DNA from: Pelosinus propionicus DSM 13327
GTDB lineage: Bacteria; Bacillota; Negativicutes; DSM-13327
Length of the DNA stretch: 64,000 nucleotides
Assembly: GCF_900114615.1 (NCBI RefSeq)
Contig: NZ_FOTS01000005.1
Location: 1-64,000 of the forward strand
Direction of reading: 5' to 3'
Within the stretch, counting starts at the first letter, position 1. Every line of letters begins with the position of its first letter. Positions 21,635-39,144 of the stretch are shown in pieces. The notes below the pieces were generated by a model. It made no database searches. It was not told the DNA's origin and saw only the letters and a program-made list of their open reading frames with translations. The position numbers and the translations under genes are program-made.

Positions 21635-22353
21635 AAAATGAATTAGATGAACATGTTATAGCATATGAAGGTAAAACGATCTACGATTTTGATAATGAAA
21701 TTTTGCTAAATTGGTATCCAAGAAGAATTATTGAGCTTACCAAAGAGACGGACTCAATTTTGGAATTGGGTCTTGGGCATGGATTTACAGCTCATATTTT
21801 TTCGAAAATTTATAAAAAATATTGTGTTTTAGAAGGATCTCCTGCTGTTATAAAAAATTTTAGGAAAAATTTTTCCAATTGTGAACTTCAAATTATTGAA
21901 ACATATTTCGAGTCTTTTAAAAGTAATGAGAAATTTGATGTTATTGTAATGGGATTTATTTTAGAACATGTAGAAAATCCTGTTCGAATATTGAATCATT
22001 TTAAACAATTTTTATCTCCTAATGGGAAAATATTTATAGCTGTTCCCAATGCAGAAGCGATGAATAGACGATTAGGAAGGTACGCGGGGTTTTTAGCTGA
22101 TATGCAGGAATTATCGCAAAATGATCTTGATCTAGGTCATAAAAGATTTTATACAGTTGATAGCTTGAAAAAAGAGATGAAGGATACAGGTTTCTCAATA
22201 GAAAGAATTGAAGGAATCTATCTAAAGCCTTTTACAACTTCTCAAATTCTATCTTTGAATTTGGATAAGAAAGTTATTGAAGGACTGTGTGAAATGGGTA
22301 TTAATTATCCAGAATTATCTTGTGGGATTCTAGCTGAAGGGAAAATAAAATGA
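21631..22353 (+). CDS. Class I SAM-dependent methyltransferase
   Basis: 240-residue methyltransferase with motif I SILELGLGHGFTAHIFSK, then EGSPAVIKNFRKNF, VIVMGFILEHVENPVRILNH and a post-core IFIAVPNAEAMNRRLGRY. It resembles the neighbour encoded at 20725, including the LEH(L/V) and PNA.A motifs, and probably methylates another position of the same or a related sugar. Its stop overlaps the next gene's start (ATGA), tying it to the epimerase/ATP-grasp/phosphoesterase group that follows. No convincing Shine-Dalgarno precedes the ATG. Confidence 0.83.
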   Translation: MKNELDEHVIAYEGKTIYDFDNEILLNWYPRRIIELTKETDSILELGLGHGFTAHIFSKIYKKYCVLEGSPAVIKNFRKNFSNCELQIIETYFESFKSNEKFDVIVMGFILEHVENPVRILNHFKQFLSPNGKIFIAVPNAEAMNRRLGRYAGFLADMQELSQNDLDLGHKRFYTVDSLKKEMKDTGFSIERIEGIYLKPFTTSQILSLNLDKKVIEGLCEMGINYPELSCGILAEGKIK

Positions 22354-23201
22354 AAACAATTGCAGTAGTCGGAGGGACATCTTCACTAGCAAAATATTTA
22401 ATACCAGCTTTATCTAAGAAAAATGCAGTTATTTCTTTAGGGCGAAAAGATTGTGATTTATATTGTGATTTGCAAGATGATTTAGAATCAATGGTTATAC
22501 CTGCTGATACTGATGTTGTTGTTCATATTGCTGCGGCTTTTAATGGTAAGACGGATGAGGAAATTATTAAAACAGAAGAAATAAACGCTATTGGAACATT
22601 GAAAATTTGTATGGCTGCAAAAAAAGCTAATGTAAAGCATCTAATTTTAATTTCTTCCCAATCTGTAGTTTTGAGTGAAGAGTCTTTATATTATAGTATC
22701 TATAGTATAGCAAAACGCCATGCAGAGGAATTAGCTACGTATTATTGTCGGTTGAATCATTTACCTTTAGCTATTTTAAGGCCATCTCAAATATATGATG
22801 ACAAAGGTCATTTTAGGAAACACCAGCCTTTGATATTCTTGATGGCTGATCATGCTGAAAAAGGTAGTAACATAGAGATCTATGGAAGAAATGATGCATT
22901 ACGTAATTATATTCATGTAGAAGATTTTGTGGAAATTATACTTCGTACAATAGATAAGAATTGTGAAGGTATATATTCTTGTAATTATCCTAAAGATGTT
23001 ACATTAAGCGAAATAGCAAAAACTGCACAATTAAGTTTTAATAATGGTGGAGATATTGTTTTTCTTCATGACAAGCCCAATATTCCTGATAATATTTTTG
23101 ATAATCAAATAGAATTATATGAGAAAATCGATTTTTATCCACAAATTGATATTGCAACTGGAATGGAAAGAATTGTTGAGTATCGAAAGAGTAGGGTATG
23201 A
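22350..23201 (+). CDS. NAD-dependent sugar epimerase/dehydratase (SDR)
   Basis: Extended SDR protein of 283 residues. The N-terminus is IAVVGGTSSLAKYLIPAL, a slightly degenerate glycine motif. SSQSV and YSIYSIAKRHAEELA supply the Ser and the YxxxK-type catalytic pair, and RPSQIYDDKG follows. The substrate is unknown. Start and stop overlap both neighbours. It is directly followed by an ATP-grasp gene; the same two activities occur fused in the protein at 37234, suggesting a shared pathway. Confidence 0.78.
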   Translation: MKTIAVVGGTSSLAKYLIPALSKKNAVISLGRKDCDLYCDLQDDLESMVIPADTDVVVHIAAAFNGKTDEEIIKTEEINAIGTLKICMAAKKANVKHLILISSQSVVLSEESLYYSIYSIAKRHAEELATYYCRLNHLPLAILRPSQIYDDKGHFRKHQPLIFLMADHAEKGSNIEIYGRNDALRNYIHVEDFVEIILRTIDKNCEGIYSCNYPKDVTLSEIAKTAQLSFNNGGDIVFLHDKPNIPDNIFDNQIELYEKIDFYPQIDIATGMERIVEYRKSRV

Positions 23202-24175
23202 TGAAAAATATTCTTGTAAGTGGTGCTAGTGGTATTGTCGGTTATGGTATTTTAAAATCTTTACGACAAGGTGTGGAAAAATTTAATCTGATCGGAACTA
23301 CGATTTATTCTGATTCTATTGCACTGGCTTTTTGTAATATTTTTGAACAAGCACCCATGACCAATGATCCTGGTTACATTGATTGGTTATGTCATATTAT
23401 AAAAAAACATAATGTGGATATGATTATTCCCGGGATTGAAGCAGATATGTATAAATGGCGAGACAATAAAGAATTTATTGAAAGATCAGGAACTAAGATT
23501 CTGTTGAATAATATTGAGCTTATTGATGTATGTAAAGATAAATGGCTCTTTTATGAGGAATTGAAAAAAAACCACTCTTTACTAGCGATAGAATCAAGAA
23601 TTGAGGGTGATTTTTCTAATTTTAAAAATGATTTTGGATTACCTTTTTTATTGAAGCCAAGACGAGGTTTTGCATCAAAGGGTATTGTAAAAGTTGATTC
23701 GAAGGATATTTTTGATTTACATAAAGAAAACTTAGGTGTTGTTTTAATGGCGCAGCCAATAGTCGGTAGTAATGAAGATGAATATACAACTTCAGCATTT
23801 TTTGATAATAAGAGTGTTTTGCATTCCTATATGACATTGAGAAGAAAATTATCTAATGAGGGTTTTACTGAGAAAGCTCAAGTCACTAATCTTGCAGGAA
23901 TTGAAGAAGCGATCAAGGAATTGGCGCTCATTTTCAAACCTATTGGCCCTACAAATTTCCAATTTAGAGTAGACAACAATAAATTAAAGTTACTTGAAAT
24001 TAACCCAAGGATTTCTTCGGCGACTTCAATAAGAGCAGCTTTTGGCTATAATGAATCTAAGATGAGTGTCGAATATTTCTTAAATGATAAAGTGCCTGAT
24101 CAGCCGGTTATCAAATCAGGTGTAGCTATTAGGTATATAGAGGAGCATATCGTTTATGATAGGGATAATTTCTGA
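23198..24175 (+). CDS. ATP-grasp ligase (carbamoyl-phosphate-synthase-like)
   Basis: 325-residue protein with a pre-ATP-grasp Rossmann part (ILVSGASGIVGYGILKSL, then VDMIIPGIEADMY) and an ATP-grasp core. In the core, FLLKPRRGFASKGIVKV binds ATP, and KLKLLEINPRISSATSIRAA carries the metal ligands. Such enzymes join a carboxylate to an amine, thiol or sugar amino group. Here it could put an amino-acid-like or acyl group on a sugar; that is inference. It overlaps the upstream epimerase and the downstream phosphoesterase genes by a few codons. Confidence 0.8.
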   Translation: MMKNILVSGASGIVGYGILKSLRQGVEKFNLIGTTIYSDSIALAFCNIFEQAPMTNDPGYIDWLCHIIKKHNVDMIIPGIEADMYKWRDNKEFIERSGTKILLNNIELIDVCKDKWLFYEELKKNHSLLAIESRIEGDFSNFKNDFGLPFLLKPRRGFASKGIVKVDSKDIFDLHKENLGVVLMAQPIVGSNEDEYTTSAFFDNKSVLHSYMTLRRKLSNEGFTEKAQVTNLAGIEEAIKELALIFKPIGPTNFQFRVDNNKLKLLEINPRISSATSIRAAFGYNESKMSVEYFLNDKVPDQPVIKSGVAIRYIEEHIVYDRDNF

Positions 24176-24830
24176 TATTCATGGTAATTATACTGCTTTG
24201 CTGGAAGTCTTGAATTCGTTGGATGCAATGGGGATTAAAGATATTTATTGCTTAGGTGATGTTGTTGGATATTATTCGCAAATAAATGAATGTTGTGTTG
24301 AATTGAGAAAAAGAGATATTAAATGTATTATGGGTAATCATGACTGGTATATGGTAGCTAAAAGTTTTTGCCCAAGGTCAAATAGTGTTAATGATTGTAT
24401 GAAGTATCAACGAACGGTAATTGCAAAAGAAAATTTTGATTGGCTTTCTTCTTTGCCAATCTTTCGTAACATTCAAGGAATATCAATGGTCCATGGTGGT
24501 TGGTGTGACCCTATTGATGAATATTTAGACCCGCAAGAAGAATATTTTGCTAGGATTACTGGCAAATATTTTATGTCTGGCCATACTCATATACAAGCAA
24601 TAAGAAAATTTGGTGATAAAATTTATTGTAATCCAGGATCTGTTGGACAACCTAGGGATAATAATCCAGAATCTGCGTTTGCGACATTTGATGGGGAAAA
24701 TTTTTTCCTTCATCGGGTTAAGTATGATGTTGATCAGGTTGGAAAGCTGATGGATAAGGCAGGGTTTAGCGGATATTATTATGGATGTTTAAAAACTGGT
24801 TCTAGGAATTTGCAGTGGGCGGAGGAATAA
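24156..24830 (+). CDS. Calcineurin-like metallophosphoesterase
   Basis: 224-residue phosphoesterase of the YfcE/MJ0936 type. Metal-binding motifs appear in order: IGIISDIHGNYTAL (DxH), YCLGDVVGYY (GD), IMGNHDWYM (GNHD), MVHGGW, and FMSGHTHIQAI (GHTH). CNPGSVGQPRD near the end is also typical. No signal peptide, so it acts in the cytoplasm, perhaps on a phosphosugar or nucleotide-sugar intermediate. It overlaps the ATP-grasp gene by 20 bases and lies 1 base before the first glycosidase-fold gene. Confidence 0.85.
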   Translation: MIGIISDIHGNYTALLEVLNSLDAMGIKDIYCLGDVVGYYSQINECCVELRKRDIKCIMGNHDWYMVAKSFCPRSNSVNDCMKYQRTVIAKENFDWLSSLPIFRNIQGISMVHGGWCDPIDEYLDPQEEYFARITGKYFMSGHTHIQAIRKFGDKIYCNPGSVGQPRDNNPESAFATFDGENFFLHRVKYDVDQVGKLMDKAGFSGYYYGCLKTGSRNLQWAEE

Positions 24831-24831
24831 A

Positions 24832-25800
24832 ATGTTTAGGTGGGAAAAAAAGGGAGTAATTTTTAATCCTATTGAAATTGAGGATAGACCTCAATGGATG
24901 TTTGAATATGCTCAAGCCCCTTGTGTATTGAAATTCGCTGATTTTATACGAGTATATTTTAGTTGTCGGCCTACAAGAGATTGCAATGGACAATGTGTAA
25001 GTTATTCTGCTTATGTTGATTTAGATAGAAAAGACTTATTTAAAATAGTAAATTTAGCCCAAAAGCCTATTTTGGAACTTGGCGAAAGAGGCTGTTTTGA
25101 TGAATTTGGTATTTATCCCATATCTGTAATTCGAGATGGGGATGATGTTAGGGCTTACTATACAGGTCATACAAGGTGTGAAAGTGTTCCTTTTGATACA
25201 GCAATAGGTTTAGCAATTAGTAAGGATTATGGACAAATTTTTGAAAGAGTTGGGCGTGGTCCAGTATTGTCATCTTCTTTAGATGAGCCATTTGTACTGA
25301 GTGGCCCTAAAATTAGAAAATTTAATGAAATGTATTATCTGTTTTACATAACGGGTAAAAAATGGATTGAAGCAAATGGAAGAAAAGAAGTAGTATATAA
25401 AATTCGAATGGCAATATCCAAGGATGGTATTAGCTGGAATAAACTAAATAAAAATATTATTGAAGAAAAATGGGGCGATCATGAAGTTCAAGCCAGTCCT
25501 GATGTATTTTTTAATAATGGCAAATATCATATGTTCTTTTGTTATATGCTTACTCCAGATTTCCGCTATGATAAACAAAAAAGTTATCGTATAGGTTATG
25601 CTTCATCAGTTGATTTAATTAATTGGGAAAGAGATGATTCGAAAGCAGGCATTGATGTTTCGCAAGCTGGTTTTGATAATGAAATGATTGCATATCCTCA
25701 TGTATTTGAACTTGACGGAAAAATTTATATGTTGTATTTAGGTAATGAGGTAGGGAGATATGGGTTTGCTCTTGCAGAACTTAGAGGAGAATTAGATTAA
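24832..25800 (+). CDS. Five-bladed propeller glycosidase-like protein, copy 1 (GH43/GH130-like)
   Basis: 322-residue protein with the repeated blade pattern of GH43/GH62/GH130-type proteins: FIRVYFSCRPTRD, VRAYYTGHT, TAIGLAISKDYGQIFERVG and NGKYHMFFCYM. It has no signal peptide, so hydrolysis of external polysaccharide is unlikely. A cytoplasmic phosphorylase, transglycosidase or sugar-binding role is more plausible. A tandem paralogue follows with an overlapping stop/start (TAATG). Both have a RDD motif near the C-terminus (NWERDDSKAGIDVSQAGFD) and the ending YGFALAEL. Confidence 0.72.
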   Translation: MFRWEKKGVIFNPIEIEDRPQWMFEYAQAPCVLKFADFIRVYFSCRPTRDCNGQCVSYSAYVDLDRKDLFKIVNLAQKPILELGERGCFDEFGIYPISVIRDGDDVRAYYTGHTRCESVPFDTAIGLAISKDYGQIFERVGRGPVLSSSLDEPFVLSGPKIRKFNEMYYLFYITGKKWIEANGRKEVVYKIRMAISKDGISWNKLNKNIIEEKWGDHEVQASPDVFFNNGKYHMFFCYMLTPDFRYDKQKSYRIGYASSVDLINWERDDSKAGIDVSQAGFDNEMIAYPHVFELDGKIYMLYLGNEVGRYGFALAELRGELD

Positions 25801-26753
25801 TGAAATGGCGGAAAATGGGGCAGATCTTTAGTTTTGAAGATTTTAATTTTAGAAAAGAATTTGTTAGTCACTCTCAATCACCTCAGGCGGTAGTTTTTGA
25901 TGATTATGTTCGAATTTATTTTTCAACAAGGCAAAAGAGTGAAAATGGGAAATTTTTAAGTAAAGTACAGTTTATAGATTTTGATAAATCTTTTACGAAA
26001 ATTATAAACCAATCCACTAAAGAGGTTATCAAACTGGGTGAATTAGGAACATTTAATGAACATGGTATTTTCCCTTTTAACCCTGTTAAATATAAAAATA
26101 AAATTTGTGCATATACTACGGGCTGGACCAGAAGATCTTCTGTTGATGTCGATTCAGGCATAGGACTTGCTATAAGCCATGATGGCGGAGAATCTTTTGA
26201 AAAAATGGGTGACGGCCCTGTTTTGTCTACTTCATTGAATGAACCTTTTTTGGTTTGTGATGGTTTTGTCAGAGTTTTTAACGATATGTTTCATATGTGG
26301 TACATTTATGGTACCGAGTGGAAGGTTTTTGAGCAAAATCAAGAGCCAGAGAGGACATATGTTATAGGTCACGCAACATCTGTTGATGGGATTAATTGGG
26401 TTAAAGAAGGTCGACAAATTATAGAGTCTAAGTATGATGGCGAGTGCCAAGCATTACCATCAATTATACAAATTGGTAGTAGATATCATATGTATTTTTG
26501 TTGTCGAAATTCTTATGATTTTAGAAAGAATCCCCAAAATTCATACAGGCTTGGATACGCATATTCTGATGACTTAATAAATTGGATTAGGGACGATGAA
26601 AATGTAGGTATTGAAGTTTCAAAGACTGGTTGGGATTCAGAAATGATGTGTTACCCGCATATTTTTGAAATGGATAATGAAATTTATATGCTATACAATG
26701 GAAATGAATTTGGGAGATATGGTTTTGGTTTAGCAAAACTAGAAGAAATATGA
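25800..26753 (+). CDS. Five-bladed propeller glycosidase-like protein, copy 2 (GH43/GH130-like)
   Basis: 317-residue tandem paralogue of the preceding protein. Matching blocks occur in the same order: DDYVRIYFSTRQKSENGKF, GTFNEHGIFPFNPV, GIGLAISHDGGESFEKMGDG, RYHMYFCCRNSYDFRKN, and INWIRDDENVGIEVSKTGWD. The retained acidic positions and tryptophans suggest that both copies are active, possibly as a heterodimer or on two sugars. The ATG overlaps the upstream TAA. A degraded methyltransferase remnant follows immediately. Confidence 0.72.
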   Translation: MKWRKMGQIFSFEDFNFRKEFVSHSQSPQAVVFDDYVRIYFSTRQKSENGKFLSKVQFIDFDKSFTKIINQSTKEVIKLGELGTFNEHGIFPFNPVKYKNKICAYTTGWTRRSSVDVDSGIGLAISHDGGESFEKMGDGPVLSTSLNEPFLVCDGFVRVFNDMFHMWYIYGTEWKVFEQNQEPERTYVIGHATSVDGINWVKEGRQIIESKYDGECQALPSIIQIGSRYHMYFCCRNSYDFRKNPQNSYRLGYAYSDDLINWIRDDENVGIEVSKTGWDSEMMCYPHIFEMDNEIYMLYNGNEFGRYGFGLAKLEEI

Positions 26754-26762
26754 AGATGAATC

Positions 26763-26928
26763 ATGCAAAAAAATTATAAACAAGAGATAGAAGATCAAAC
26801 ATCATATCGTCAGAAGGGATTGAGATCCTTGCATAATATTGCAATCTTATCTTGATTTACTGTCTGAGCTTTCTGATGACCCTGTAAGGGTTTTAAAAGG
26901 TAGAATTAATGATGAGTTGGTTATCTGA
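26763..26928 (+). pseudogene. Remnant of a methyltransferase gene (internal deletion and frameshift)
   Basis: The first 14 or so codons, MQKNYKQEIEDQTSY, match the start of the intact methyltransferase at 20725 (RNYNKEIEDTTDHKY). After a TGA at 26853 and in another frame, LSDDPVRVLKGRINDEL matches the intact protein's LDDPVALLKRINDEW. About 90 intervening codons, including SAM-binding motif I, are gone. This is a clear scar of gene loss or recombination. Confidence 0.75.
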
Positions 26929-26954
26929 TAAATTTAATATGAGGAGAAACTACT

Positions 26955-28085
26955 ATGACTCAACATAAAGCATTTGAACAACCCATATATGTAACGCGAC
27001 CATTGTTACCTAATTTATCAGAAATTCATGTCAAGTTGGAAGAAGTATGGCAGTCGCAATGGTTGACTAATATAGGAAAGCAACATAAGCAACTGGAAAA
27101 GAGAACTACTGAAGTTTTAAAAGTGCCATATTTATCACTGTTTAATAACGGAACAATAGGACTTATAACGGCTTGCCAAAGTCTGCGTTTACAAGGAGAA
27201 GTGATTACTACTCCGTTTACTTTTGCAGCAACGCCACATGTTTTAATGTGGAATAATATTAAACCAATTTTTTGTGATATTGATCCAATTACTATGAATA
27301 TCGATGCTGATAAGATAGAGTCTATGATTACGCCACAAACCACGGGGATTCTACCAGTACATGTATTTGGAACTCCTTGCGATGTTGAAAAAATTCAGGA
27401 AGTCGCTGACCGATATGGACTGAAAATAGTATATGATGCGGCACATGCCTTTGGTGTGGAAATCAATGGTGTCGGTATTGGAAATTTTGGGGATATTTCT
27501 ATGATGAGCTTTCATGCAACGAAACTTTTTCATACAGTTGAAGGGGGAGCTTTGACTTATAGGGATAAGCACCTAAAAGACAGGATTGATTTATTGAAAA
27601 ATTTTGGCATAAAGGGCCAGGAAGAAGTGGTCATGCCTGGGATTAATGGGAAAATGAATGAAATACAGGCGGCTATAGGGCTTGTAGTCCTCAATTATAT
27701 CGAAGAAGAAAGAAGAAAACGAGCTATTTTAATTGACACCTATCGAAGGTGCCTTATGGATGTAGAGGGGATTAGCTTTTTATCTGATATTGCTGGTGTG
27801 AAAAGCAATAGTCAGTACTTTGTAATGAGAATCAGTGAAAAAATATTTGGTCGCTCACGTAATTATGTCTATGATGAATTTATGAAATATAATGTATTTA
27901 CTAGAAAATATTTTTATCCATTATGTAGCGAGTATACATGTTATCGTCATTTGCCATCATCTTCTATGGTTAATTTGCCTGTTGCACATAAGGTAGTGCA
28001 AGAAGTTTTGTCTATGCCTTTATATGGAGAACTTACAGTGAATGAAGTTGAAAAAATTTGTGATATTTTAAAGTCATTTCAATAG
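26955..28085 (+). CDS. DegT/DnrJ/EryC1 family sugar aminotransferase
   Basis: 376-residue PLP-dependent aminotransferase or dehydratase. The lysine is at about K190 in MSFHATKLFHTVEGGAL, preceded by IVYDAAHAFGVEINGV. PFTFAATPHVLMWNNIKP is the usual substrate-pocket segment. It differs from LegC and PseC elsewhere in the island, so a third amino sugar (for example a VioA/FdtB-type product) is implied. GAGGAGAAAC precedes the ATG. It is separated from its neighbours by over 100 bases on the 3' side. Confidence 0.87.
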   Translation: MTQHKAFEQPIYVTRPLLPNLSEIHVKLEEVWQSQWLTNIGKQHKQLEKRTTEVLKVPYLSLFNNGTIGLITACQSLRLQGEVITTPFTFAATPHVLMWNNIKPIFCDIDPITMNIDADKIESMITPQTTGILPVHVFGTPCDVEKIQEVADRYGLKIVYDAAHAFGVEINGVGIGNFGDISMMSFHATKLFHTVEGGALTYRDKHLKDRIDLLKNFGIKGQEEVVMPGINGKMNEIQAAIGLVVLNYIEEERRKRAILIDTYRRCLMDVEGISFLSDIAGVKSNSQYFVMRISEKIFGRSRNYVYDEFMKYNVFTRKYFYPLCSEYTCYRHLPSSSMVNLPVAHKVVQEVLSMPLYGELTVNEVEKICDILKSFQ

Positions 28086-28196
28086 GCAAAGGGGAATGGC
28101 TTTTGATAAATTGCTTGAAACTGTTTTAAATCCGATACTGATAAAGCTATATTAAACAATAAACTATGTTGGATTTTTTAAAAAGAGAGGTGAATT

Positions 28197-29363
28197 ATGA
28201 TGAAAGTAAGTGTAGTAGTGCCAACGTATAATCATGAAAAGTATATTGCAGTATGCTTAGATAGTATTTTGTGCCAAAATACTAATTTTGATTATGAAAT
28301 TTTAATCGGTGAAGATGATTCTTCTGATGGTACAAGAGATATTGTGAAAAAGTATGTACGAGATTATCCATCGAAAATAAAAGCCTTTTATACTGATAGG
28401 AAGCATGTTAGTTATTTTGCTGGGCATCCAAATGGCGGTGATAACTTTATAAATTTACTGAAAAATGCATCAGGAGAATATATATCTTTGTGTGATGGGG
28501 ACGATTATTGGACAAATAATTCAAAATTACAACAGCAAGTGGATTTCTTGGATAAAAACTCTGACTTTTCGATTTGCTTTCATAATGCAATTCGAACAGA
28601 TGGAACTGAACATGTGTTATATTCACAGATAGAAGACATACTTAAAAGTGGTAAAGCGTTTTTTGAATTAGAGGATTTATTAAAAAGTAACTTTATACCC
28701 ACAGCTTCTGTTGTATTTCGCAATAAGTTAATTGGGGAGTTACCTGATTGGTATTTTAAGTTTGCATTTGGTGATTGGTCGTTACATATTTTGAACGCAA
28801 TGCATGGAAAGATAAAGTATATTGATGAACCTATGTCAGTTTATCGGATACATAATTCATCGTCATGGTCAAGTAAGAATCTGGAATATAGATATAAATC
28901 TATGATGGATTTCCAGTTCTTTATAAATCGTTTTTTTGATTTTGCATATGATGATGTTATTAAAGAAAGTATTATTAAGAATAACGTTTATTTTATAAAA
29001 GAATTTGAAGCTTTACGTAGGGCATTCGAAGCTCCAAAAGATTTTCTTGAGCTGCTAAAAAAAATAAGTAAAAAAAAAATAGTGGTGTTTGGCATCGGAA
29101 GTTGCGGTCAGAAAATACATCGACTCCTTCCAGTACAAGTGAGTTATTTCTCAGATAATGATTCGCTCAAGTGGGGGCAAACGGTTTCTGGGATTGTGAT
29201 CAAAGATCCATTAGAAATTGCTAAGGAAAAAAAAGATGAGTTAGCCATTTTGATATGCAGCACCTATTGTACGGAAATAGCTGAGCAATTGACGGAAATG
29301 GGATTTGAAGAAAATGAACATTATTGGAATTTATATTCAACACATAAGTGGTTATTCGAATAA
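28197..29363 (+). CDS. Family 2 glycosyltransferase with C-terminal Rossmann-like domain
   Basis: 388-residue protein. The N-terminal GT-A domain (about 1-250) shows VSVVVPTYNHEKYIAVCLDS, then GEDDSSDGTRDIVKKY and the metal-binding SLCDGDDYWT. Residues about 293-388 form the island's recurrent Rossmann-like module (KIVVFGIGSCGQKIHRLL, then YFSDNDSLKWGQ, and ILICSTYCTEIAEQL). No membrane segments, so it acts in the cytoplasm. AAAGAGAGGTG precedes tandem ATGs. Confidence 0.85.
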   Translation: MMKVSVVVPTYNHEKYIAVCLDSILCQNTNFDYEILIGEDDSSDGTRDIVKKYVRDYPSKIKAFYTDRKHVSYFAGHPNGGDNFINLLKNASGEYISLCDGDDYWTNNSKLQQQVDFLDKNSDFSICFHNAIRTDGTEHVLYSQIEDILKSGKAFFELEDLLKSNFIPTASVVFRNKLIGELPDWYFKFAFGDWSLHILNAMHGKIKYIDEPMSVYRIHNSSSWSSKNLEYRYKSMMDFQFFINRFFDFAYDDVIKESIIKNNVYFIKEFEALRRAFEAPKDFLELLKKISKKKIVVFGIGSCGQKIHRLLPVQVSYFSDNDSLKWGQTVSGIVIKDPLEIAKEKKDELAILICSTYCTEIAEQLTEMGFEENEHYWNLYSTHKWLFE

Positions 29364-30381: not shown

Positions 30382-32853
30382 ATGCAATTTAATTATCAGC
30401 AACAACCTGGGCGGACATTGATAAATCGAAATCTTATAATAGACGATAAGGAACCACTAATGACAATAATAACGCCTTATTACAATGCAGGAAAATTTAT
30501 ACGTCAAACAGCCAATTGCGTATTTAATCAAACTTTCCCTTATTATGAATGGATTATTGTAAATGATGGTTCAACAAATAAAGAAGATGTAGATGTATTA
30601 GATTTATTAGTTCAAGAGGATAGTAGAGTAAAAGTATTTCATAAAGAAAATGGTGGACCAGGGTCAGGAAGAAATATGGCAATACGAGAGAGTACGACAG
30701 GGCTAATTGTCATTCTTGATGCAGATGATCTAATTGATCCTACTTATTTAGAATGTGCGTATTTTACTTTACAGACTAATCCGGATGCTCAGTGGTGTTA
30801 TTCAGATTCAGTGGGTTTTAATAAAGCAGAGCATTTGTGGAAATATCCGTTTATTACAGAAAGATTAAAGAAAAATAATTTTTTATTGTCAATTGCGGTT
30901 ATAAGAAAAAGCGCATTAGCCAAGGTTGGTTTATATGATGAACGAGTAAAACATGCTTATGAAGATTGGCATTTATGGTTAAAGCTTTTAAAAGAAGGTA
31001 TGTATCCAGTTCATATGAACTATTATGGAACATGGTACAGAAAATCTGATGATGGTGTATATGGACAAGTTAACAATGATGAGGGAAAATATGGAAAGGC
31101 TATTGAATTTGTTAAAGAAGTATCCAAGTTTGTTGATGATACAATAAAAGCTATTGAATATCCATTAGCTAATAATAATAATTTTAAAAAGCCGGTCAGC
31201 TGGACCTGGGATAAGAAAGCTATACTTGGAGATGAAAAATGTAAAATTTTAATGATAATACCATGGATGACTGTAGGTGGAGCTGATAGTTATAATTTAG
31301 ATTTAGTTGCAAACATTGATAAAAGTAAGTTTGAAGTGTCGATTATTACGACAATACCTTCCCAGTCAGAATGGCGTCAAAAGTTTGAAGAACATGTTAC
31401 TGATATTTTTGACTTAAGCACTTTTTTGCATGTAGAAAATTGGTGTGCTTTTATACATTATTTTATAAAATCAAGAGGTATTGATATTGTTATGATATCC
31501 AATAGTTATTATGGGTATTATTTAATTCCTTGGTTAAGAAAGGAGTTCCCTAATATATCTATTGTAGATTGCTTACATATGGAAGAATGGTATTGGCGGT
31601 CAGGGGGCTATGCAAGAACATCTGGTGTTTTGGGAGATATATTAGATAGGTCCTATGTATCTACAGAACATTTAAAAACATTAATGGTTGAATATTTTAA
31701 GAGAAATGAAACTGAGATTAAAGTAATAAAAAGTGGTGTAGATGAAAAATATTTTGATCCTGCTATAATAAAGGCTGGAGAAATTAAAGCTGAAGTAGGA
31801 ATATCTTTTGAGGAGCCAGTTGTATTGTATCTTTGCAGAATGCATCAGCAAAAGAGACCTTTTTTGATGATTGATATTGCTGAGGAGCTAAGGAAGCGAA
31901 TTCAAAATGTAAAATTCTTTGCAGTTGGTAATGGTCCAGAATTGGGGCTGCTAAAAAGTGAAGTTAGAAAAAGAGAAATGGAAAATACCTTACATTTTTT
32001 TGGAACTAGAACTGACTTACCAAAGTTTTATAAAGATAGTGATGTAACATTAATTTGTTCTATAAAAGAAGGGATAGCTGTTATTACTTATGAATCATTG
32101 GCAATGGGCGTACCTGTTGTAAGTTCAGACGTAGGGGCGCAACGAGAATTGATTGATGATACAGTTGGTTGTGTTTTACCGATAATGCAAGAGGAAGAAA
32201 AAGATTTTGCGGATATTCATTATAGTGAAATTGAGATATTACAATATGTGGATGCCATAGAAGAAATACTTAAAGATAAGGTGAAGTATGGGGAAATGCA
32301 GAAGGAATGTCGATTAAAGATTCTTGAAAACCATACAAAAACAATTTTTATAAATACGTGGCAAAAAGAATTTCTGAAACTGAAGTCGGGGTATTGGAAG
32401 GGAAAAAGAGAAAAATTAAATGAAGTATTTAAATTAATCCCTAATTTAGCAGACGATTATTTTACTATCTTTCTAGAAATGAATTTGGCAGAATTTCAGT
32501 ATAGCGCAATGTCTGTAAGGCTTAGACCAATAGAAGAGTTTATTGATAAAGCTAAAAATCGTCAGGTATTTATTTGGGGAGCAAGTAATGGCGGCAAGAA
32601 AACGTTGGATCATTTAAGGAATGCCAATATTAGTGGTACTGTGGCATTTATTGATAATGATCCCAATAAAGCAGGATCATTGTTTTGTGAATTACCTGTA
32701 TATTCACCAAAGGTACTTGAAGAATTACTTGTGGAAGACAAGAAACCATTTGTATTTATTGGCTCAATGTATGTAGAATCAATCAAATCTAGCTTAGAAA
32801 ATATAGGACTTAAAGCAAATGTTGATTTTGCCGATTGTTTATATATTTTATGA
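30382..32853 (+). CDS. Bifunctional glycosyltransferase: GT2 + GT4 + Rossmann-like tail
   Basis: 823-residue, three-part protein. Residues about 20-250 are a GT-A family 2 domain (MTIITPYYNAGKFIRQTANC, NDGSTNKEDVDVLD, VILDADDLID). Residues about 280-670 are a GT-B family 4 domain (MIIPWMTVGGADSYNLDLVA, VLYLCRMHQQKRPFLMIDIA, and SIKEGIAVITYESLAMGVPV). The final 95 residues repeat the island's GxGxxG module (QVFIWGASNGGKKTLDHL, AFIDNDPNKAG). It probably adds two consecutive sugars. The ATG at 30382 has AAAGGGGG 5 bases upstream; a start at 30325 overlaps the previous stop but lacks a clear ribosome-binding site. Confidence 0.85.
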   Translation: MQFNYQQQPGRTLINRNLIIDDKEPLMTIITPYYNAGKFIRQTANCVFNQTFPYYEWIIVNDGSTNKEDVDVLDLLVQEDSRVKVFHKENGGPGSGRNMAIRESTTGLIVILDADDLIDPTYLECAYFTLQTNPDAQWCYSDSVGFNKAEHLWKYPFITERLKKNNFLLSIAVIRKSALAKVGLYDERVKHAYEDWHLWLKLLKEGMYPVHMNYYGTWYRKSDDGVYGQVNNDEGKYGKAIEFVKEVSKFVDDTIKAIEYPLANNNNFKKPVSWTWDKKAILGDEKCKILMIIPWMTVGGADSYNLDLVANIDKSKFEVSIITTIPSQSEWRQKFEEHVTDIFDLSTFLHVENWCAFIHYFIKSRGIDIVMISNSYYGYYLIPWLRKEFPNISIVDCLHMEEWYWRSGGYARTSGVLGDILDRSYVSTEHLKTLMVEYFKRNETEIKVIKSGVDEKYFDPAIIKAGEIKAEVGISFEEPVVLYLCRMHQQKRPFLMIDIAEELRKRIQNVKFFAVGNGPELGLLKSEVRKREMENTLHFFGTRTDLPKFYKDSDVTLICSIKEGIAVITYESLAMGVPVVSSDVGAQRELIDDTVGCVLPIMQEEEKDFADIHYSEIEILQYVDAIEEILKDKVKYGEMQKECRLKILENHTKTIFINTWQKEFLKLKSGYWKGKREKLNEVFKLIPNLADDYFTIFLEMNLAEFQYSAMSVRLRPIEEFIDKAKNRQVFIWGASNGGKKTLDHLRNANISGTVAFIDNDPNKAGSLFCELPVYSPKVLEELLVEDKKPFVFIGSMYVESIKSSLENIGLKANVDFADCLYIL

Positions 32854-33071
32854 AAAATGCTCCACACATTATTGTATAGGGAACGACAATGTATGTCAGT
32901 CTTATGAAGGGATCTCCTGCCAGGTTACTGGAAGTATTATTATCTAAATCGACATTAAAGAATATAAATATTGTCTTTGTTTTTTAAAGAAAATCAAGAT
33001 TAATGTCAATGGCTGGTATGTATTAATGTGAGAAAATATTGAATTGCTGTGTTCTAAAGGAGGTCTATATC

Positions 33072-33719
33072 ATGAGTTATTCATATAATAAGTGTATTAG
33101 CTTAGGTCTAAATTGTGAAGTCTCATTTCAAGTCCAAAGAAGTATGAAAAATTTTGAATCTTATTTTCTCTCTTGGGCATTTCTTTATTCATTTGAGGGC
33201 TTACTTAAAGTGTTAGCTGAAATGGAGAAAATTTTTAACTGTGATTTAGAACCCCATGGGACGAATATGTTTCTAATTAAGGAATATTCTATCGCATTTC
33301 ATGGAAAAGCAAATATTGACTCCATTCGATTAAGTAATGGAAAGTTAGATGAAGTTATGCTAAAGGATGTTAAAGATGAATTGATTAGCAGACAGTTATA
33401 TTTAGCTGACAAATTTCGCAAAACTTTGAATTCTGGAGAAAAGATATTACTTATTATAAAACCTAATCCAGGTATAGTTGATGTGACAGCATTTGAAGTA
33501 AAGAATTACTCTTTACAAATAAGAGAACTTCTATCTAATAAATATCCCAATAGTGACTTTGATTTATTAGTGCTGCAGGAAGAACAACATTTTGAAACAG
33601 ATTGGAATGAACCTAGAATATTCAATAGGTATATAAGCAAATTTGCTCCTATTCCCAAAGCGAATGAAGCTGATGTTGAGAGTTGGAATAAAATATTTTC
33701 GGAGTTTAAATGTATATAA
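33072..33719 (+). CDS. DUF1796 family putative papain-like cysteine peptidase
   Basis: 215-residue protein with the DUF1796 opening CISLGLNCEVSFQVQR, in which the cysteine of LGLNCE is the predicted nucleophile, followed by FLSWAFLYSFEGLL and SIAFHGKANIDS with a candidate histidine. No signal peptide. Such proteins often occur among glycosyltransferases; an acyltransferase or deacylase role is as likely as peptide cleavage. AAAGGAGG lies 8 bases before the ATG at 33072, which rules out the upstream TTG at 33039. The 218 bases before it hold no recognisable gene. Confidence 0.75.
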   Translation: MSYSYNKCISLGLNCEVSFQVQRSMKNFESYFLSWAFLYSFEGLLKVLAEMEKIFNCDLEPHGTNMFLIKEYSIAFHGKANIDSIRLSNGKLDEVMLKDVKDELISRQLYLADKFRKTLNSGEKILLIIKPNPGIVDVTAFEVKNYSLQIRELLSNKYPNSDFDLLVLQEEQHFETDWNEPRIFNRYISKFAPIPKANEADVESWNKIFSEFKCI

Positions 33720-33838
33720 CGTGTTACATATAGTTTTAAGGATTCACTTGCTCTTAGATAAAAAAAATTTCTTTCGTATAGAATATAGGTAAATAATGTT
33801 GGAAAGCGAATTAATGAAGTTTTGAAAAGAGGTTACTT

Positions 33839-35389
33839 GTGGAGGAGAAAAGAAAACGTCTTGGAATAGTGACATATGGAATGCTAGGTGGAGGCATAGA
33901 AGTATTTATCTTAAATCTTGGTGTATATTTCCAAAAACGCGAGTTTGATGTAACGATAATTACTACAGAAATTCCAGGTGCTTGGTTTCATTGGATTGAA
34001 AAGTATGGCCTTAAGGAACTGCATATTGAAGGACTAGGTTATCATTCGCCTGCCCAGCATGTGAGAAAAGTGGCTTCAGCATTATATGATGGTCAATTTG
34101 ATGTTCTCATTCTTAATCATGCACGCTTTGCTCAGGCAGGATTGGGGATGGGAAAAACTTCTCCGGTGGTTATTCCTGTAGTAAATAGTACAAATGAGTT
34201 TTTTGCGCAAATGAGTGCTTATAAATCTGATCTATGTGAGTCTGTTGTTGCGGTAAGTCCAGCTGTAGCCCAAATCGCTTACCGTAGTGGTATAAAGTGT
34301 CCGGTGGAAGTCATTCTAAATGGGGTAGCTTGGCCAGAGATGGACGTCCAGGTTATTAGTCGTAATTATGAGCAGCGTGAGTTAAAACTTTTGTATGCAG
34401 GACGAGTACGTGACGAGCAAAAAGGTGTTTTTTTACTGCCGGAAATTATAAAAAGACTAGTAGCAAATGATGTAAAATTAACTCTGGATATTGTGGGAGA
34501 CGGACCTGATCTGATCGAATTGCAAAAACGGTTTAAGGAATATAATTTGGAAGATCATATTAAATACTGGGGGAATGTGGAAGTAGCTGTTTTACATAAA
34601 ATTATGAGGGCAGATCATGTATTGCTTTTTCCTTCTTACTACGAGGGATTGCCACTTATGCCGATGGAGGCAAGTTTGTGTGGATGTGTGTCGGTGGCTT
34701 CATTCTTAGAAGGAATCACAGATGATATGATCACAGATGGACAAAATGGCTTTTTGGTGAAGTGCGGTGATATTGGAGAATTTTGTAGATGTATTGAGCT
34801 GCTGTACAATGATCGGGGTTTATTGCGAAAGGTGAGCGACGAGGCGTTGAATTATGCAACCAATAACTTTACATTAGATATAATGGGGCAACAATATTAT
34901 GACCTGATTACTAGAGCGATAAATAACCAAAGAGTAGTTGATAAAAGTAACAATATTAATGATGAGAGGATAATTCCTTTTATTTCAGGATCGCCTATTG
35001 AAAGTGTGGAATTTTATAACCGCCAATGGGTGCAAGGTTTTGAACAAGATTGCTTTATAACGAAGAAGTTTAATTGTAAGAAAGTAGCTATTTACGGGAC
35101 TTTAAGAAATGGATTATACTTTCTTTTTGATTTGCGAAATACAGGTGCAGAAGTGATGACATTTATAGATAGTAATAAAGAATTGCACGGTAAATCTTTG
35201 AACGGAATATCAATAAATGGGCTAAGGTGGCTGGATGATAATTATGATACAATTGATGCCGTGTTGATATCGATAGAAAGCCAAGAAGATGAGAAAGTAA
35301 AAGAAGAATTGATCAAAAAATATGCCAGGACGGGATTAGCAATTTATACATGGAAAGAATTGTTGAATGCATCTCAAGCTGATTTGTGA
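33839..35389 (+). CDS. Family 4 glycosyltransferase with C-terminal Rossmann-like domain
   Basis: 516-residue protein. The GT-B part (about 1-370) starts with VTYGMLGGGIEVFILNLG, has LLYAGRVRDEQKGVFLLPEI in the donor domain and FPSYYEGLPLMPMEASLCG as the EX7E motif. Residues about 410-516 are a diverged copy of the recurrent module (KVAIYGTLRNGLYFLFDL, TFIDSNKELHG, AVLISIESQEDEKV). GTG start with AAAGAGGT a few bases upstream. It begins the second, less A/T-rich half of the glycosyltransferase section. Confidence 0.85.
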   Translation: MEEKRKRLGIVTYGMLGGGIEVFILNLGVYFQKREFDVTIITTEIPGAWFHWIEKYGLKELHIEGLGYHSPAQHVRKVASALYDGQFDVLILNHARFAQAGLGMGKTSPVVIPVVNSTNEFFAQMSAYKSDLCESVVAVSPAVAQIAYRSGIKCPVEVILNGVAWPEMDVQVISRNYEQRELKLLYAGRVRDEQKGVFLLPEIIKRLVANDVKLTLDIVGDGPDLIELQKRFKEYNLEDHIKYWGNVEVAVLHKIMRADHVLLFPSYYEGLPLMPMEASLCGCVSVASFLEGITDDMITDGQNGFLVKCGDIGEFCRCIELLYNDRGLLRKVSDEALNYATNNFTLDIMGQQYYDLITRAINNQRVVDKSNNINDERIIPFISGSPIESVEFYNRQWVQGFEQDCFITKKFNCKKVAIYGTLRNGLYFLFDLRNTGAEVMTFIDSNKELHGKSLNGISINGLRWLDDNYDTIDAVLISIESQEDEKVKEELIKKYARTGLAIYTWKELLNASQADL

Positions 35390-35433
35390 AATTACCTTAG
35401 AATGAATTCATAAATGACAGGAGAGCAGTATAT

Positions 35434-36636
35434 ATGAATAAGTTCACAACACATGCATCTAGAGTCGTTTCAGCAGTGGTGCCTGTCTATAATGCAGCCG
35501 CTTATATTCGTGAGACGATCGAGAGTTTACTGCGACAAGAAGAGCCTCTTGGTGAAATTATCATCGTTGATGATGGCAGTAGTGACAATACCTGTGAAAT
35601 AGTTGAGAAAGTGGCTGCGACAGACTCAAGATTGAAATTGTGTAGGCTCCCTTATAATCAGGGAGTATCCGCCGCGCGGAATTTTGGTATCCAGGTATCA
35701 AATGGTGAGTGGATATTGTTTTTAGATGGGGATGATATTGCCGACGAGAGGTTGTTAATAAGGCAATTGAGCCATGTGCGACAGCTCAGTGAAGAGGGAT
35801 ACGGTGACGTTATTCTTGTTCACAGTGCCTATCAGCAAATAGATGAAATAGGTAATAAAATTAATGGTATTACGCGCTGGAAACAAGTATATCCTCAGGA
35901 AATATTGGGTTACTTTTTATTGCGAAATCACATTATTACTACATCTGGTGTATTGGCATACAAAAAAGTTCTAATGCAAACAGGTGGTTTTAATCCAAAA
36001 TTGCACTATGCAGAAGATTGGGATCTATGGCTTCGATTGGCGCAGAAAGGCGGATTTGGTTATGTAGATGAGCCGCTTGTATTTGTGCGTCGGCATAGCG
36101 AAAATACTTCAAAATCAGTGACAACAGGATTACAAGGGGAACAATGTGTTCTGAATCAATATAACATAGAATTGATTAAAACCGCGATTTTCCGACGAGA
36201 TCTACCATGGGAAGTCAATTCTGCAGATTATGCTGCAATGCTTTTTCGTTTAGATAAGTGGGAGGACGGTTATCATTTTTTAGAACAAGCGCTTGGAATT
36301 AATGCTGGATTTTCCACGGGACACTTTCTAAAGGGATTGTATTATGTAAAAAATCAGGAATGGCTAAATGCAAGACAGAGTTTTGAACAAACGCTGATGC
36401 TGGATGAACAACATGGTGCTGCTCTAAATAATTTAGGGGCATTGCTGGCAGCGAAAATGAGAACAAATGAAGCCCTATATTGTTTAAATAGAGCTTTAGA
36501 AATCTTTCCAGGTTACTTAGATGCAAAACGTAATATAGAACTATTATCAAATATGAACGGCAAAAGTCTCAATTATGATGAATTGCATTTTACATGGCGG
36601 GAGTTAAGACCAGTTTTGCTTGCTTATTCTGAATAG
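35434..36636 (+). CDS. Family 2 glycosyltransferase with C-terminal TPR repeats
   Basis: 400-residue protein. The GT-A domain (about 8-240) has VSAVVPVYNAAAYIRETIES, VDDGSSDNTCEIVEKV and the metal-binding LFLDGDDIADERL. Residues about 280-375 contain TPR-like repeats (SFEQTLMLDEQHGAALNNLG, then NEALYCLNRALEIFPGYLDA). TPR-bearing glycosyltransferases often act on protein substrates, so direct action on flagellin or a glycoprotein is possible. AGGAGAGC precedes the ATG. Confidence 0.85.
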   Translation: MNKFTTHASRVVSAVVPVYNAAAYIRETIESLLRQEEPLGEIIIVDDGSSDNTCEIVEKVAATDSRLKLCRLPYNQGVSAARNFGIQVSNGEWILFLDGDDIADERLLIRQLSHVRQLSEEGYGDVILVHSAYQQIDEIGNKINGITRWKQVYPQEILGYFLLRNHIITTSGVLAYKKVLMQTGGFNPKLHYAEDWDLWLRLAQKGGFGYVDEPLVFVRRHSENTSKSVTTGLQGEQCVLNQYNIELIKTAIFRRDLPWEVNSADYAAMLFRLDKWEDGYHFLEQALGINAGFSTGHFLKGLYYVKNQEWLNARQSFEQTLMLDEQHGAALNNLGALLAAKMRTNEALYCLNRALEIFPGYLDAKRNIELLSNMNGKSLNYDELHFTWRELRPVLLAYSE

Positions 36637-36665
36637 CATAATTGCACTACAATGGGAGAAACGTG

Positions 36666-37247
36666 ATGAAGAGTTATAAATGCCTAAAGTTTGACCGATA
36701 TGTTTCGGAGAATTATACATTGCTACCTGTTCGTGAGCAGGACATTATGCTGATTAAGGACTGGCGTAATTCGCAGCTAGACGTTCTTCGCCAAAAGTAC
36801 ATTTTGACAGAGGAAATGCAGCGCGGCTATTTCGAAACAGTAGTTTGGCCTTCTTTTGAATTGGAACAGCCGCAGCAGCTTTTATTCAGTTTCCTTAAGC
36901 AGGATGTTTGCATCGGTTATGGCGGGATCGTTCATATTAGTTGGGAAGATCGGCGAGGAGAAGTCTCCTTTTTGCTGAATTCAGAACGTGTGTCAGCTTC
37001 TAATGTGTACCATCAAGATTTTCTATCATTTTTAAACTTGATTAAACAAGTAGCTTACGAAGGGCTTAGTTTTAATCGTCTGTTTACTGAAACATTTGAT
37101 ATTAGACCATTTCATATTTCAATTTTAGAAGAAGCGGGTTTTCTTTGCGAGGGTCGTATGAAGCAGCATGTCTACTTGAATGACGCCTTTGTTGATTCGG
37201 TACTTCATGGGCATATAAGGGGGTATGATAATAGTGTGGACAAATAA
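36666..37247 (+). CDS. GNAT-family acetyltransferase (PseH candidate)
   Basis: 193-residue GNAT-like protein: LLPVREQDIMLIKDWRNSQ at the N-terminus is the typical start of PseH/RimJ-type sugar or protein acetyltransferases. CIGYGGIVHISWEDRRGEVS forms the beta-strand core, and HISILEEAGFLCEGRMKQH is the usual C-terminal signature. It is the only free-standing GNAT in the island, so it could be the PseH step of pseudaminic acid synthesis, which is otherwise unassigned. It sits 19 kb from pseBC, so this is inference. The ATG at 36666 follows GGGAGAA. Confidence 0.68.
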   Translation: MKSYKCLKFDRYVSENYTLLPVREQDIMLIKDWRNSQLDVLRQKYILTEEMQRGYFETVVWPSFELEQPQQLLFSFLKQDVCIGYGGIVHISWEDRRGEVSFLLNSERVSASNVYHQDFLSFLNLIKQVAYEGLSFNRLFTETFDIRPFHISILEEAGFLCEGRMKQHVYLNDAFVDSVLHGHIRGYDNSVDK

Positions 37248-39144
37248 ACGAGTTTTTATTAGCGGTGGCAACGGTGTGATCGGGAGGGAGCTTGTTAAAA
37301 AGCTTCACGAGCAAGGGGCCACAATTTTTGTTGGTGATTTAAAACCCTTTTCGTCCGATCTTCCGCAGGATATTATGTATCGTCAAGGTGATTTGAATTA
37401 TGTAACACCACAAGAAATCTTAAGTTTCAAGCCGGAATATTTTTTCCATTTAGCTGCAACATTTGAGCGTTCGATAGAAACCTATGAATTCTGGGAAGAG
37501 AATTTTTGGCACAATGTCAAGCTGAGCAATCACTTAATGTCGATTATGAAAGATTGTCCTACTTTGAAACGGGTTATATTTGCTTCTAGCTATCTAATAT
37601 ATGATCAGAGTTTATATCAATTTGATACCCCTCAAGATAGGGCATGCCGATTAACTGAAACTGCTTGTATCAGTCCGCGGAATTTAACAGGAATGGCCAA
37701 ATTGATGCATGAAGTGGAATTGGGATTTTTAAGTGAATTTAATCAAGAGCAATTTAGTGTGGTAACGCCACGTATTTATCGCGTATATGGTAAGGGCTCT
37801 CGAGATGTCATTTCACGATGGACTCGAATGCTCTTAGCAGGTGAGACCATAAAAGTATACGGGCAGGAGGGGATATTTGACTATATTTATGCTGGAGATG
37901 TAGCAGAAGGGCTAGTTCGTTTGGCCGATTCATCTGTGCAGGGAGTGGTGAACTTAGGCAAAGATCATGCACGTAAAGTAAGAGAAGTATTGGACGTTTT
38001 TAAGAACTATTTTCCGGAGATGAAAACGGAATTCATGGCAGAGCACACTCATTTTGAAGCATCACAGGCTAATATGGACTATATGTATGAACAAGTGAAT
38101 TGGATACCAACTGTTGAAATTGAGGACGGGATTCGTATGTTGGTGGAATATGAACGAAATGTCCTAAATAACCAAGAAATTACTAAAAAGAAAAAAGCTA
38201 ATGTTTTATTAACTAGCGCCTCGAGAAAAGTGCCACTCCTTCAAGCTCTGAAAAAAGCCATGCAAAAAGTAGGATCCTATAGTCAATTAATCGCTGCGGA
38301 TAGTGATGAGTCGTGCCTGGCTCGATATTTTGCTGACGATTTCTGGCATATGCCATCGTTGGACAGGATGACTGATGATAAGTTGATTTATGAACTCACA
38401 GCTAGAAATGTAAGAGTTGTTGTGCCTTCCCGTGATGGTGAACTTATCTTTTGGAGTACACGTAAGGAGTGGCTAGGTCAGCATGGTATTCAAGTTATGG
38501 TATCAGATTTGACTGCTGTTGAGTATTGTCTTGATAAACTTAAGTTTTATGAATTTTGTTGTAAACACGATATTCCGGCCATTATGACAACTGATCAATT
38601 GGAGAATTTAGATGCTGAAAGGTATGTGGTAAAGGATCGCTATGGAGCTGGTTCGCAGAATATAGGAATAAATCTTACGCGGACAGAGGTGCAGCAACAT
38701 GCGGTTAAACTTAAACAACCTATTTTTCAGTCCTACATAGAAGGGCGAGAGTATAGCATTGATGTTTATGTAGACCGTACAGGACAAAGCAAAGGCCTAG
38801 TGTGCCGTTCTCGAGACCAAATTGTCAACGGTGAGTCCCAAATAACAACAATCATACATGATGAGCGACTGGAACGGCTTTGTGGGGAATATGTTACAAA
38901 ATTACAACTTTATGGACATGTAGTATTACAATTGATTATAGACATGCAGCAGAAGGTTCATTTAATTGAATGTAATTCTCGTTTCGGTGGCGCATCTACT
39001 CTTGGACTGGCTGCTGGAGTAGATAGTTTCTTTTGGTTTTTGTTGGAAGCAAGTGGACAAGATATTAGTTCGTATCCATTTCTAAAAACAAATCGCATTC
39101 TTTGCCAAGTTCGATACTTGTCAGATGTTGTATTGGATATATAG
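37234..39144 (+). CDS. Fusion of SDR epimerase and ATP-grasp ligase
   Basis: 636-residue two-enzyme fusion. Residues about 1-305 are an extended SDR (RVFISGGNGVIGRELVKKL, then RVIFASSYLIYDQSLY). Residues about 325-636 are an ATP-grasp enzyme with its own Rossmann pre-domain (NVLLTSASRKVPLLQALKKA, DRYGAGSQNIGINL, VHLIECNSRFGGASTLGLAA). The same pair exists as separate neighbouring genes at 22350 and 23198. A GTG at 37234 is used because AAGGGGG is 10 bases upstream but only 1 base from the ATG at 37225. It overlaps the GNAT gene. Confidence 0.84.
   Translation: MWTNKRVFISGGNGVIGRELVKKLHEQGATIFVGDLKPFSSDLPQDIMYRQGDLNYVTPQEILSFKPEYFFHLAATFERSIETYEFWEENFWHNVKLSNHLMSIMKDCPTLKRVIFASSYLIYDQSLYQFDTPQDRACRLTETACISPRNLTGMAKLMHEVELGFLSEFNQEQFSVVTPRIYRVYGKGSRDVISRWTRMLLAGETIKVYGQEGIFDYIYAGDVAEGLVRLADSSVQGVVNLGKDHARKVREVLDVFKNYFPEMKTEFMAEHTHFEASQANMDYMYEQVNWIPTVEIEDGIRMLVEYERNVLNNQEITKKKKANVLLTSASRKVPLLQALKKAMQKVGSYSQLIAADSDESCLARYFADDFWHMPSLDRMTDDKLIYELTARNVRVVVPSRDGELIFWSTRKEWLGQHGIQVMVSDLTAVEYCLDKLKFYEFCCKHDIPAIMTTDQLENLDAERYVVKDRYGAGSQNIGINLTRTEVQQHAVKLKQPIFQSYIEGREYSIDVYVDRTGQSKGLVCRSRDQIVNGESQITTIIHDERLERLCGEYVTKLQLYGHVVLQLIIDMQQKVHLIECNSRFGGASTLGLAAGVDSFFWFLLEASGQDISSYPFLKTNRILCQVRYLSDVVLDI

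Follow-up and report, generated by a model that had tools for sequence, protein, structure and literature searches.

Two gene sets in a flagellar glycan island of Pelosinus propionicus DSM 13327 raise the question of whether the same enzyme pair occurs there twice, and, if not, what the second set does. The stretch analyzed, positions 1 to 64,000 of contig NZ_FOTS01000005.1 (assembly GCF_900114615.1; 37% G+C) and referred to here as the window, carries separate, overlapping genes for a short-chain dehydrogenase/reductase (SDR) and an ATP-grasp enzyme near 22 kb, and a single gene near 37 kb whose product joins the same two folds. The island itself was recognized in profile and Pfam searches of the open reading frames (ORFs) of the window. 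Our analysis points to the fused protein as the ligase of a variant pathway to pseudaminic-type nonulosonates, in which the ATP-grasp part and a HAD phosphatase replace PseH and a GNAT-like protein, with or without the SDR, takes the place of PseG, the ATP-grasp enzyme at 22 kb being separate; we hold this reading with roughly even confidence. The fusion belongs to a widespread and recurrent version of the pseudaminic pathway, lacking PseH and often PseG, that is apparently undescribed: no description of an ATP-grasp/HAD pseudaminic operon or of a PseG-less variant was found in the open-license literature, most subscription journals being outside the search. The genes on which the question turns are as follows.

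15518-16537, plus strand: PseB (TIGR03589, 546 bits, above cut-off)
16538-17701, plus strand: PseC (TIGR03588, 569 bits, above cut-off)
22350-23201, plus strand: separate SDR (Pfam Epimerase, 9e-25; YxxxK kept, NAD motif lacking its third Gly)
23198-24175, plus strand: separate ATP-grasp enzyme of PRK12767.1-1 type (NF009402, 219.9 bits, cut-off 218)
24156-24830, plus strand: calcineurin-like phosphoesterase (Pfam), its gene overlapping the 22-kb ATP-grasp gene
36642-37247, plus strand: GNAT-fold protein, with a PseH-like fold and no acyl-coenzyme A (CoA) pyrophosphate loop (Pfam Acetyltransf_4, 1e-16); the likely start is 36666, and the ORF overlaps the fusion gene
37225-39144, plus strand: fused SDR-like and PRK12767-type ATP-grasp protein, 639 amino acids
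37225-38178, plus strand: SDR-like domain of the fusion, residues about 1-318
38179-39144, plus strand: ATP-grasp domain of the fusion, residues about 319-639
39218-40135, plus strand: S-adenosylmethionine-dependent methyltransferase (Pfam)
40255-40944, plus strand: HAD phosphatase (Pfam/NCBIfam), constant partner of the fused ATP-grasp family
40973-42022, plus strand: PseI pseudaminic acid synthase (TIGR03586, 509.9 bits, cut-off 340)
44377-45066, plus strand: PseF-like cytidylyltransferase (TIGR03584, 148 bits, below the cut-off of 205.7)

The initial annotation held that the separate pair at 22350-24175 mirrors the fusion and that the two activities work in sequence. The overlap of the separate genes was confirmed, with 4 bp common to both ORFs, as was the single protein at 37 kb, whose start lies at 37225 (37234, the start first given, is an inner one) and whose Pfam matches are Epimerase at residues 10-245 and PylC-like_N/ATP-grasp_3 at residues 327-589. 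The mirroring itself was not borne out. Pairwise identity to the corresponding part of the fusion is 20.5% for the SDR (E value 2e-6) and 22.7% for the ATP-grasp enzyme (E value 7e-15). In an ATP-grasp tree of 42 rows the 22-kb protein fell within a clade of 12 rows, labeled AG, with support of 100/100, and a single clade uniting it with the fusion family was rejected by the approximately unbiased test (p-AU 0.000378). This places the ATP-grasp halves in different subfamilies by phylogeny, the outcome that had been named beforehand as counting against the mirror. The best NCBIfam families differ as well: the 22-kb enzyme lies above the cut-off of NF009402 (PRK12767.1-1), and the fused one is nearest to NF009405 (PRK12767.1-4), although its score of 168.1 against that family is below the cut-off of 390. 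The two SDRs have opposite motif losses, the 22-kb protein keeping YxxxK (as Y-S-I-A-K) and lacking the last Gly of the NAD motif, the fused domain showing the reverse; in the SDR tree, which has long branches, one clade for the two was not rejected (p-AU 0.244).

The company kept by the 22-kb genes is also different. Relatives in the AG clade adjoin either a calcineurin-like phosphoesterase (L027, L029, L030, L032 and L121, mostly with PseI) or WbqC (L019, L020, L021, L023, L024, L117, L119 and L120). No SDR partner adjoins the AG relatives examined, an SDR-type gene being found in the vicinity only at L030, on the far side of the phosphoesterase; the 22-kb SDR had no other match at 1e-20 among 398 genomes of its phylum (Bacillota). 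The resemblance between the two gene sets is no more than one of fold, between two members of two large superfamilies, and on the strength of the NCBIfam subfamilies, the low identity and the clade test we reject the 22-kb pair as an unfused counterpart of the fusion. The 22-kb ATP-grasp enzyme is best read as a second, separate ligase from a different subfamily, accompanied by an unrelated phosphatase of its own. Similar-looking pairs of folds within one cluster need not form a single module.

What the fusion does is better approached through its relatives. Searching 84,980 species genomes with the ATP-grasp domain of the fusion yielded 80 loci. The tree and co-occurrence set has 80 rows (78 loci, L006 and the window), with L103 (ATP-grasp frame not recovered) and L105 (a fragment) dropped; for counts of HAD adjacency 79 loci were used, with L103 alone dropped. 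The fusion is no artefact, the same SDR-ATP-grasp ORF being present in 35 of the 80 loci. GNAT, instead of the SDR, is fused to the ATP-grasp domain in 8/80, and a standalone ATP-grasp gene in a locus with PseG was found in 17/80. In the Methanolobus locus (L100) the SDR and ATP-grasp proteins are encoded by neighboring separate genes, and thus a genuine Rosetta pair exists, outside the window. Cooperation of the two parts, as the initial annotation supposed, is therefore upheld at 37 kb, where the SDR-like domain and ATP-grasp very probably act together, and not for the 22-kb pair as its mirror. The ATP-grasp domains nearest to that of the window have three different front domains (SDR; GNAT in L034; PseG in L006), on the starred branches of the tree. 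Fusion partners found in a class search were PseG in L006, HAD in L007-L009 and a pyridoxal phosphate decarboxylase-like domain in L011 (G184), and L005 is a GNAT-ATP-grasp fusion. The L011 fusion adjoins a NeuB-type synthase.

Gene order around the ATP-grasp domain is strongly conserved. In 71 of 79 loci a HAD phosphatase is encoded no more than 1.5 kb downstream; other 1.5-kb bins, serving as an internal control, gave 0/67 and 0/69 upstream and 1/71 at 1.5-3 kb downstream. PseI usually accompanies ATP-grasp and HAD, and the recurrent order is PseG, or the GNAT-like protein, or the GNAT-like and SDR-like proteins together, followed by ATP-grasp, HAD and PseI, across bacteria and one archaeon. 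The whole operon, of seven to eight genes, occurs in Bacillota, Bacteroidota, several proteobacterial and other phyla, and one archaeon; that of L040, for example, consists of PseB, PseC, PseF, GNAT, SDR-ATP-grasp, HAD and PseI. L040, L071 and L100 are compact operons without further candidate genes. Methyltransferases are frequent neighbors, the type encoded at 39218 being near ATP-grasp in 33/79 loci, a TylF-like type (250 amino acids, Pfam match just below cut-off) in 31/79 and both in 25/79.

The proteins of this operon differ in how much of their expected active site they keep. Core residues of the fused ATP-grasp domain are retained almost throughout (K120 and E264 in 79/80; K152, N266 and R268 in 80/80), and both catalytic Asp residues of the HAD protein are intact in 70/70. 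In the SDR-like alignment GxxGxxG and Lys159 are present in 38/38 rows, the 39th being gapped, and the catalytic Tyr is present in 0/38, with Thr in 25, Cys in 11 and Val in 2; the window protein has Thr155 at the Tyr position of YxxxK. The model of the fusion (pLDDT 90.5, pTM 0.59) has PDB entry 2pn1 and UDP-sugar epimerases as best matches, and the arrangement of its domains is uncertain because of the pTM value. The AlphaFold model of the GNAT protein (pLDDT 95.6) closely resembles SpeG and Helicobacter pylori PseH (4ri1, Z 21.4), and the CoA pyrophosphate loop is absent across the aligned family. The window GNAT (36666-37244) has no match to the PseH profile TIGR03585 at 1e-3. As a control from the same phylum, a PseH beside PseG and PseI (L127) keeps the loop and scores 103.2 bits against a PseH cut-off of 93.1. 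Strong members of the window GNAT family in the 398 Bacillota genomes were the window and one GNAT-ATP-grasp fusion (L125) only; the next-best match, L126 (G599) at 81 bits, apparently lacks the loop and directly adjoins a NeuB-type synthase and a methyltransferase, with no ATP-grasp within the 3.5 kb examined.

The canonical pathway runs PseB-PseC-PseH-PseG-PseI-PseF, as in Caulobacter with FlmA/B/H/D, NeuB and FlmC, and RkpO of Sinorhizobium is a PseG homologue (PMC7591256; here and below, statements with PMC numbers refer to the accessible parts of those sources). The window shares with it PseB, PseC, PseI and a PseF-like gene, in flagellar surroundings that include FliD and two Maf-type genes; it differs in that PseG and PseH are missing by curated cut-off, and instead it has SDR-ATP-grasp, HAD and a GNAT protein lacking the CoA loop. 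As first noted, the combination of SDR and ATP-grasp lies outside the standard nonulosonic pathway, yet it is part of a recurrent variant of that pathway. Among the 80 tree rows, 52 have GNAT without an intact PseG, 18 have PseG without GNAT, 10 have neither and none has both. Genome-wide checks for PseG and PseH covered the genomes of 50 of the 80 loci. In these whole-genome profile searches PseG was above cut-off in none of 34 GNAT-type genomes and in 14 of 14 genomes with PseG at the locus; of two further genomes, that of L088 had it and that of L066 did not. The genome of the window has no PseG above the cut-off of 153.55, the best match being 32.3 bits over the C-terminal part only. In L036, from a Desulfobulbaceae genome, a PseG remnant (4084-4398, an ORF of 104 amino acids with two stops in the profile match) lies directly before the GNAT-SDR-ATP-grasp genes. 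PseH exceeded its curated cut-off in only 1 of the 50 genomes.

These distributions suggest the following scheme. PseB and PseC would make the UDP-4-amino sugar. The ATP-grasp domain would then activate a carboxylate with ATP and join it to the 4-amine (at C7 in the finished sugar), thereby replacing PseH; the acid would probably be phosphorylated, with 3-phosphoglycerate or phosphoserine as favorites. HAD would take off the phosphate, and the acyl group may be capped by methyltransferases encoded nearby. The GNAT-like protein and the SDR-like domain would hold the UDP-sugar acceptor and replace PseG in freeing the sugar, after which PseI and PseF would finish it for flagellin. Since the PseG-type loci contain PseB, PseC, PseG, PseI and a PseF-like gene and lack PseH, the simplest role for ATP-grasp and HAD is to acylate the 4-amino group. 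The HAD partner points to an acid attached in phosphorylated form and dephosphorylated later, as with Cj1438C and Cj1435 of Campylobacter jejuni, and because di-O-methylglyceroyl pseudaminic acid occurs on C. jejuni flagellin (PMC3068675), phosphoglycerate followed by methylation is an attractive guess. PseI shows no type-specific residue in the GNAT-type loci, which leads us to expect a free sugar of the same kind there. The most likely chemistry is still that proposed from the start, in which a carboxylate is ligated to an amino sugar; the substrates of ATP-grasp and HAD, and UDP release by the GNAT-like protein, we infer. The most specific form of the proposal, that a CoA-less PseH-like GNAT, in many lineages aided by a Tyr-less SDR domain, replaces PseG while ATP-grasp and HAD replace PseH, is tentative, and we regard it as possible rather than probable.

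Several points weigh against this scheme. To our knowledge, no GNAT protein without a CoA loop is a hydrolase. In ten of the 80 tree rows both GNAT and PseG are missing from the locus, and L066 lacks PseG genome-wide as well as GNAT at the locus. Corrected for kinship, the exclusion of GNAT and PseG comes down to 3 independent pairs (the starred branches), all in the expected direction and not significant (p 0.25). Weaker PseH-like GNATs (1e-5) occur in 45 of the 50 genomes, so that PseH activity could come from elsewhere in the genome. A further UDP-sugar hydrolase, NeuC, is found in Pelosinus (the window and L033), L034 and L090. Finally, the SDR is conserved in roughly half of the loci, which speaks for a specific chemical function that the scheme leaves unaccounted for.

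Other candidates for the missing hydrolase were considered and rejected. NeuC as a general substitute for PseG is present in only 6/50 genomes, of both locus types. A hidden, distant PseG finds no place, the matches below cut-off spanning the C-terminal half only, apart from the L036 remnant. The SDR alone would not serve in the seven genomes (L034, L049, L082, L083, L084, L089 and L090) that have neither SDR nor PseG; these have GNAT-fused loci or loci with GNAT and a standalone ATP-grasp. Among conserved unlabeled genes, only two kinds are widespread: that for the TylF-like methyltransferase, in 31 loci, and genes specific to Hymenobacter. A comparison of PseI, HAD and ATP-grasp for type-specific residues, which retained only three of the Hymenobacter rows in group 2, showed no clean switch between PseG-type and GNAT-type loci.

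Of the alternative explanations, the one that survives best, which we nevertheless consider unlikely, has the fused SDR-like domain actively epimerizing a UDP-sugar (4-keto or 4-amino) by Thr or Cys chemistry, the GNAT-SDR operons thereby giving a stereoisomer of pseudaminic acid, with ATP-grasp and HAD as separate tailoring enzymes. The invariant NAD motif and Lys159 would fit, with Tyr changed to Thr or Cys, as would the best fold matches, which are UDP-sugar epimerases and GDP-mannose 3,5-epimerase. The domain is also strictly bound to the locus: it was found elsewhere in none of the 32 genomes lacking an SDR at the locus, a search in which 4 of 4 controls were found. However, GNAT-ATP-grasp operons without an SDR share the same PseI, HAD and absence of PseG, and PseI has no residues that distinguish PseG-type from GNAT-type loci.

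A reversed amidation, in which ATP-grasp couples a sugar carboxylate such as C1 of the nonulosonate to a phosphorylated amine (serinol or ethanolamine phosphate) that HAD then dephosphorylates, has a precedent in the capsule system of C. jejuni, where the Cj1438C ligase and the Cj1435 HAD phosphatase add serinol or ethanolamine phosphate to glucuronate and then remove the phosphate (PMC11800379). That system resembles ours in pairing an ATP-grasp ligase with a HAD phosphatase, here a constant partner, and in placing a phosphorylated partner on a sugar. It differs in its TupA-like family, in acting on a sugar carboxylate and in having no nonulosonate synthase; ours is PRK12767-type and stands beside PseI. 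No TupA-like ATP-grasp, the family of Cj1438C, was among the Pfam matches of the fused protein at 1e-3. Gene order and the fusions to PseG (L006) and to a PseH-like GNAT (L005) place ATP-grasp before PseI, where there is as yet no sugar carboxylate, and we find the reversed direction distinctly unlikely.

It is very unlikely, in our judgment, that the GNAT-like, SDR-like and ATP-grasp proteins perform a normal acetylation by way of an unusual CoA site, a housekeeping enzyme hydrolyzing the UDP-sugar and nothing being replaced; the GNAT fold is indeed very close to those of the CoA-binding SpeG and PseH (Z about 22), but the CoA loop is lost family-wide, and the true PseH of L127 keeps it and scores 103 bits where the window GNAT has no match. 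That the 22-kb pair and the fusion are one two-step module, SDR then ATP-grasp, is extremely unlikely: the shared folds, their order, the overlapping genes and the unrejected SDR clade (p-AU 0.24, long branches) stand against ATP-grasp clades that differ (p-AU 0.0004), different best NCBIfam subfamilies, an SDR identity of 20% with opposite motif losses, AG relatives without an SDR partner and the lack of a further 22-kb SDR relative at 1e-20 in the 398 genomes.

The variant ligase reading can also be set beside other ATP-grasp proteins. PDB entry 2pn1, a carbamoyl phosphate synthase-like protein of Exiguobacterium with no assigned function or substrate, is the nearest solved structure to the fused ATP-grasp domain by sequence (5.6e-30) and by fold, and has no SDR. 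Within flagellin glycan loci, ATP-grasp genes are represented by SfmE (SO_3265) of Shewanella (PMC3765264) and CDR20291_0245 of Clostridioides difficile type B (PMC5207246), whose mutants alter the glycan; these are of ATP-grasp_4 type, and the accessible descriptions, by which alone they are set apart, give no SDR fusion and no HAD-PseI order. On the type B flagellin of C. difficile, an N-acylated amino sugar bears a peptide-like cap (PMC5207245).

Bacterial flagella and capsules are coated with nonulosonic acids, for many derivatives of which no genes have been assigned. If the scheme is true, a family annotated only as carbamoyl phosphate synthase-like would gain a pathway and a step, and the seven-to-eight-gene operon would be a testable alternative to PseH and PseG. 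It would then amount to a second route, itself widespread, leading from UDP-GlcNAc to pseudaminic-type sugars whose N7 group is not acetyl (glyceroyl or seryl, for example), and the enzyme releasing UDP in it would be of a new kind. The sharp question raised is which enzyme frees UDP where PseG is absent.

The remaining labeled genes of the island are these.

824-2944: FliD
Starts at 3653 and 13642: two MptE/Maf-type genes
Starts at 6355, 9581, 10747, 11925 and 13013: a legionaminic-type set, LegB, LegC, NeuC, NeuB and NeuD, respectively

PseB and PseC are more than 20 kb from PseI and the PseF-like gene in the window. Directly behind the phosphoesterase gene lie two tandem genes (24832-25800 and 25800-26753) for GH32/GH130-like proteins of about 41-44% mutual identity where compared. 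A protein with CBS domains fused to a sugar nucleotidyltransferase (43307-44380) is encoded next to the PseF-like gene and is kept in the other Pelosinus (L033). Between glycosyltransferase genes, an ORF of 226 amino acids at 33039-33719 has no Pfam match.

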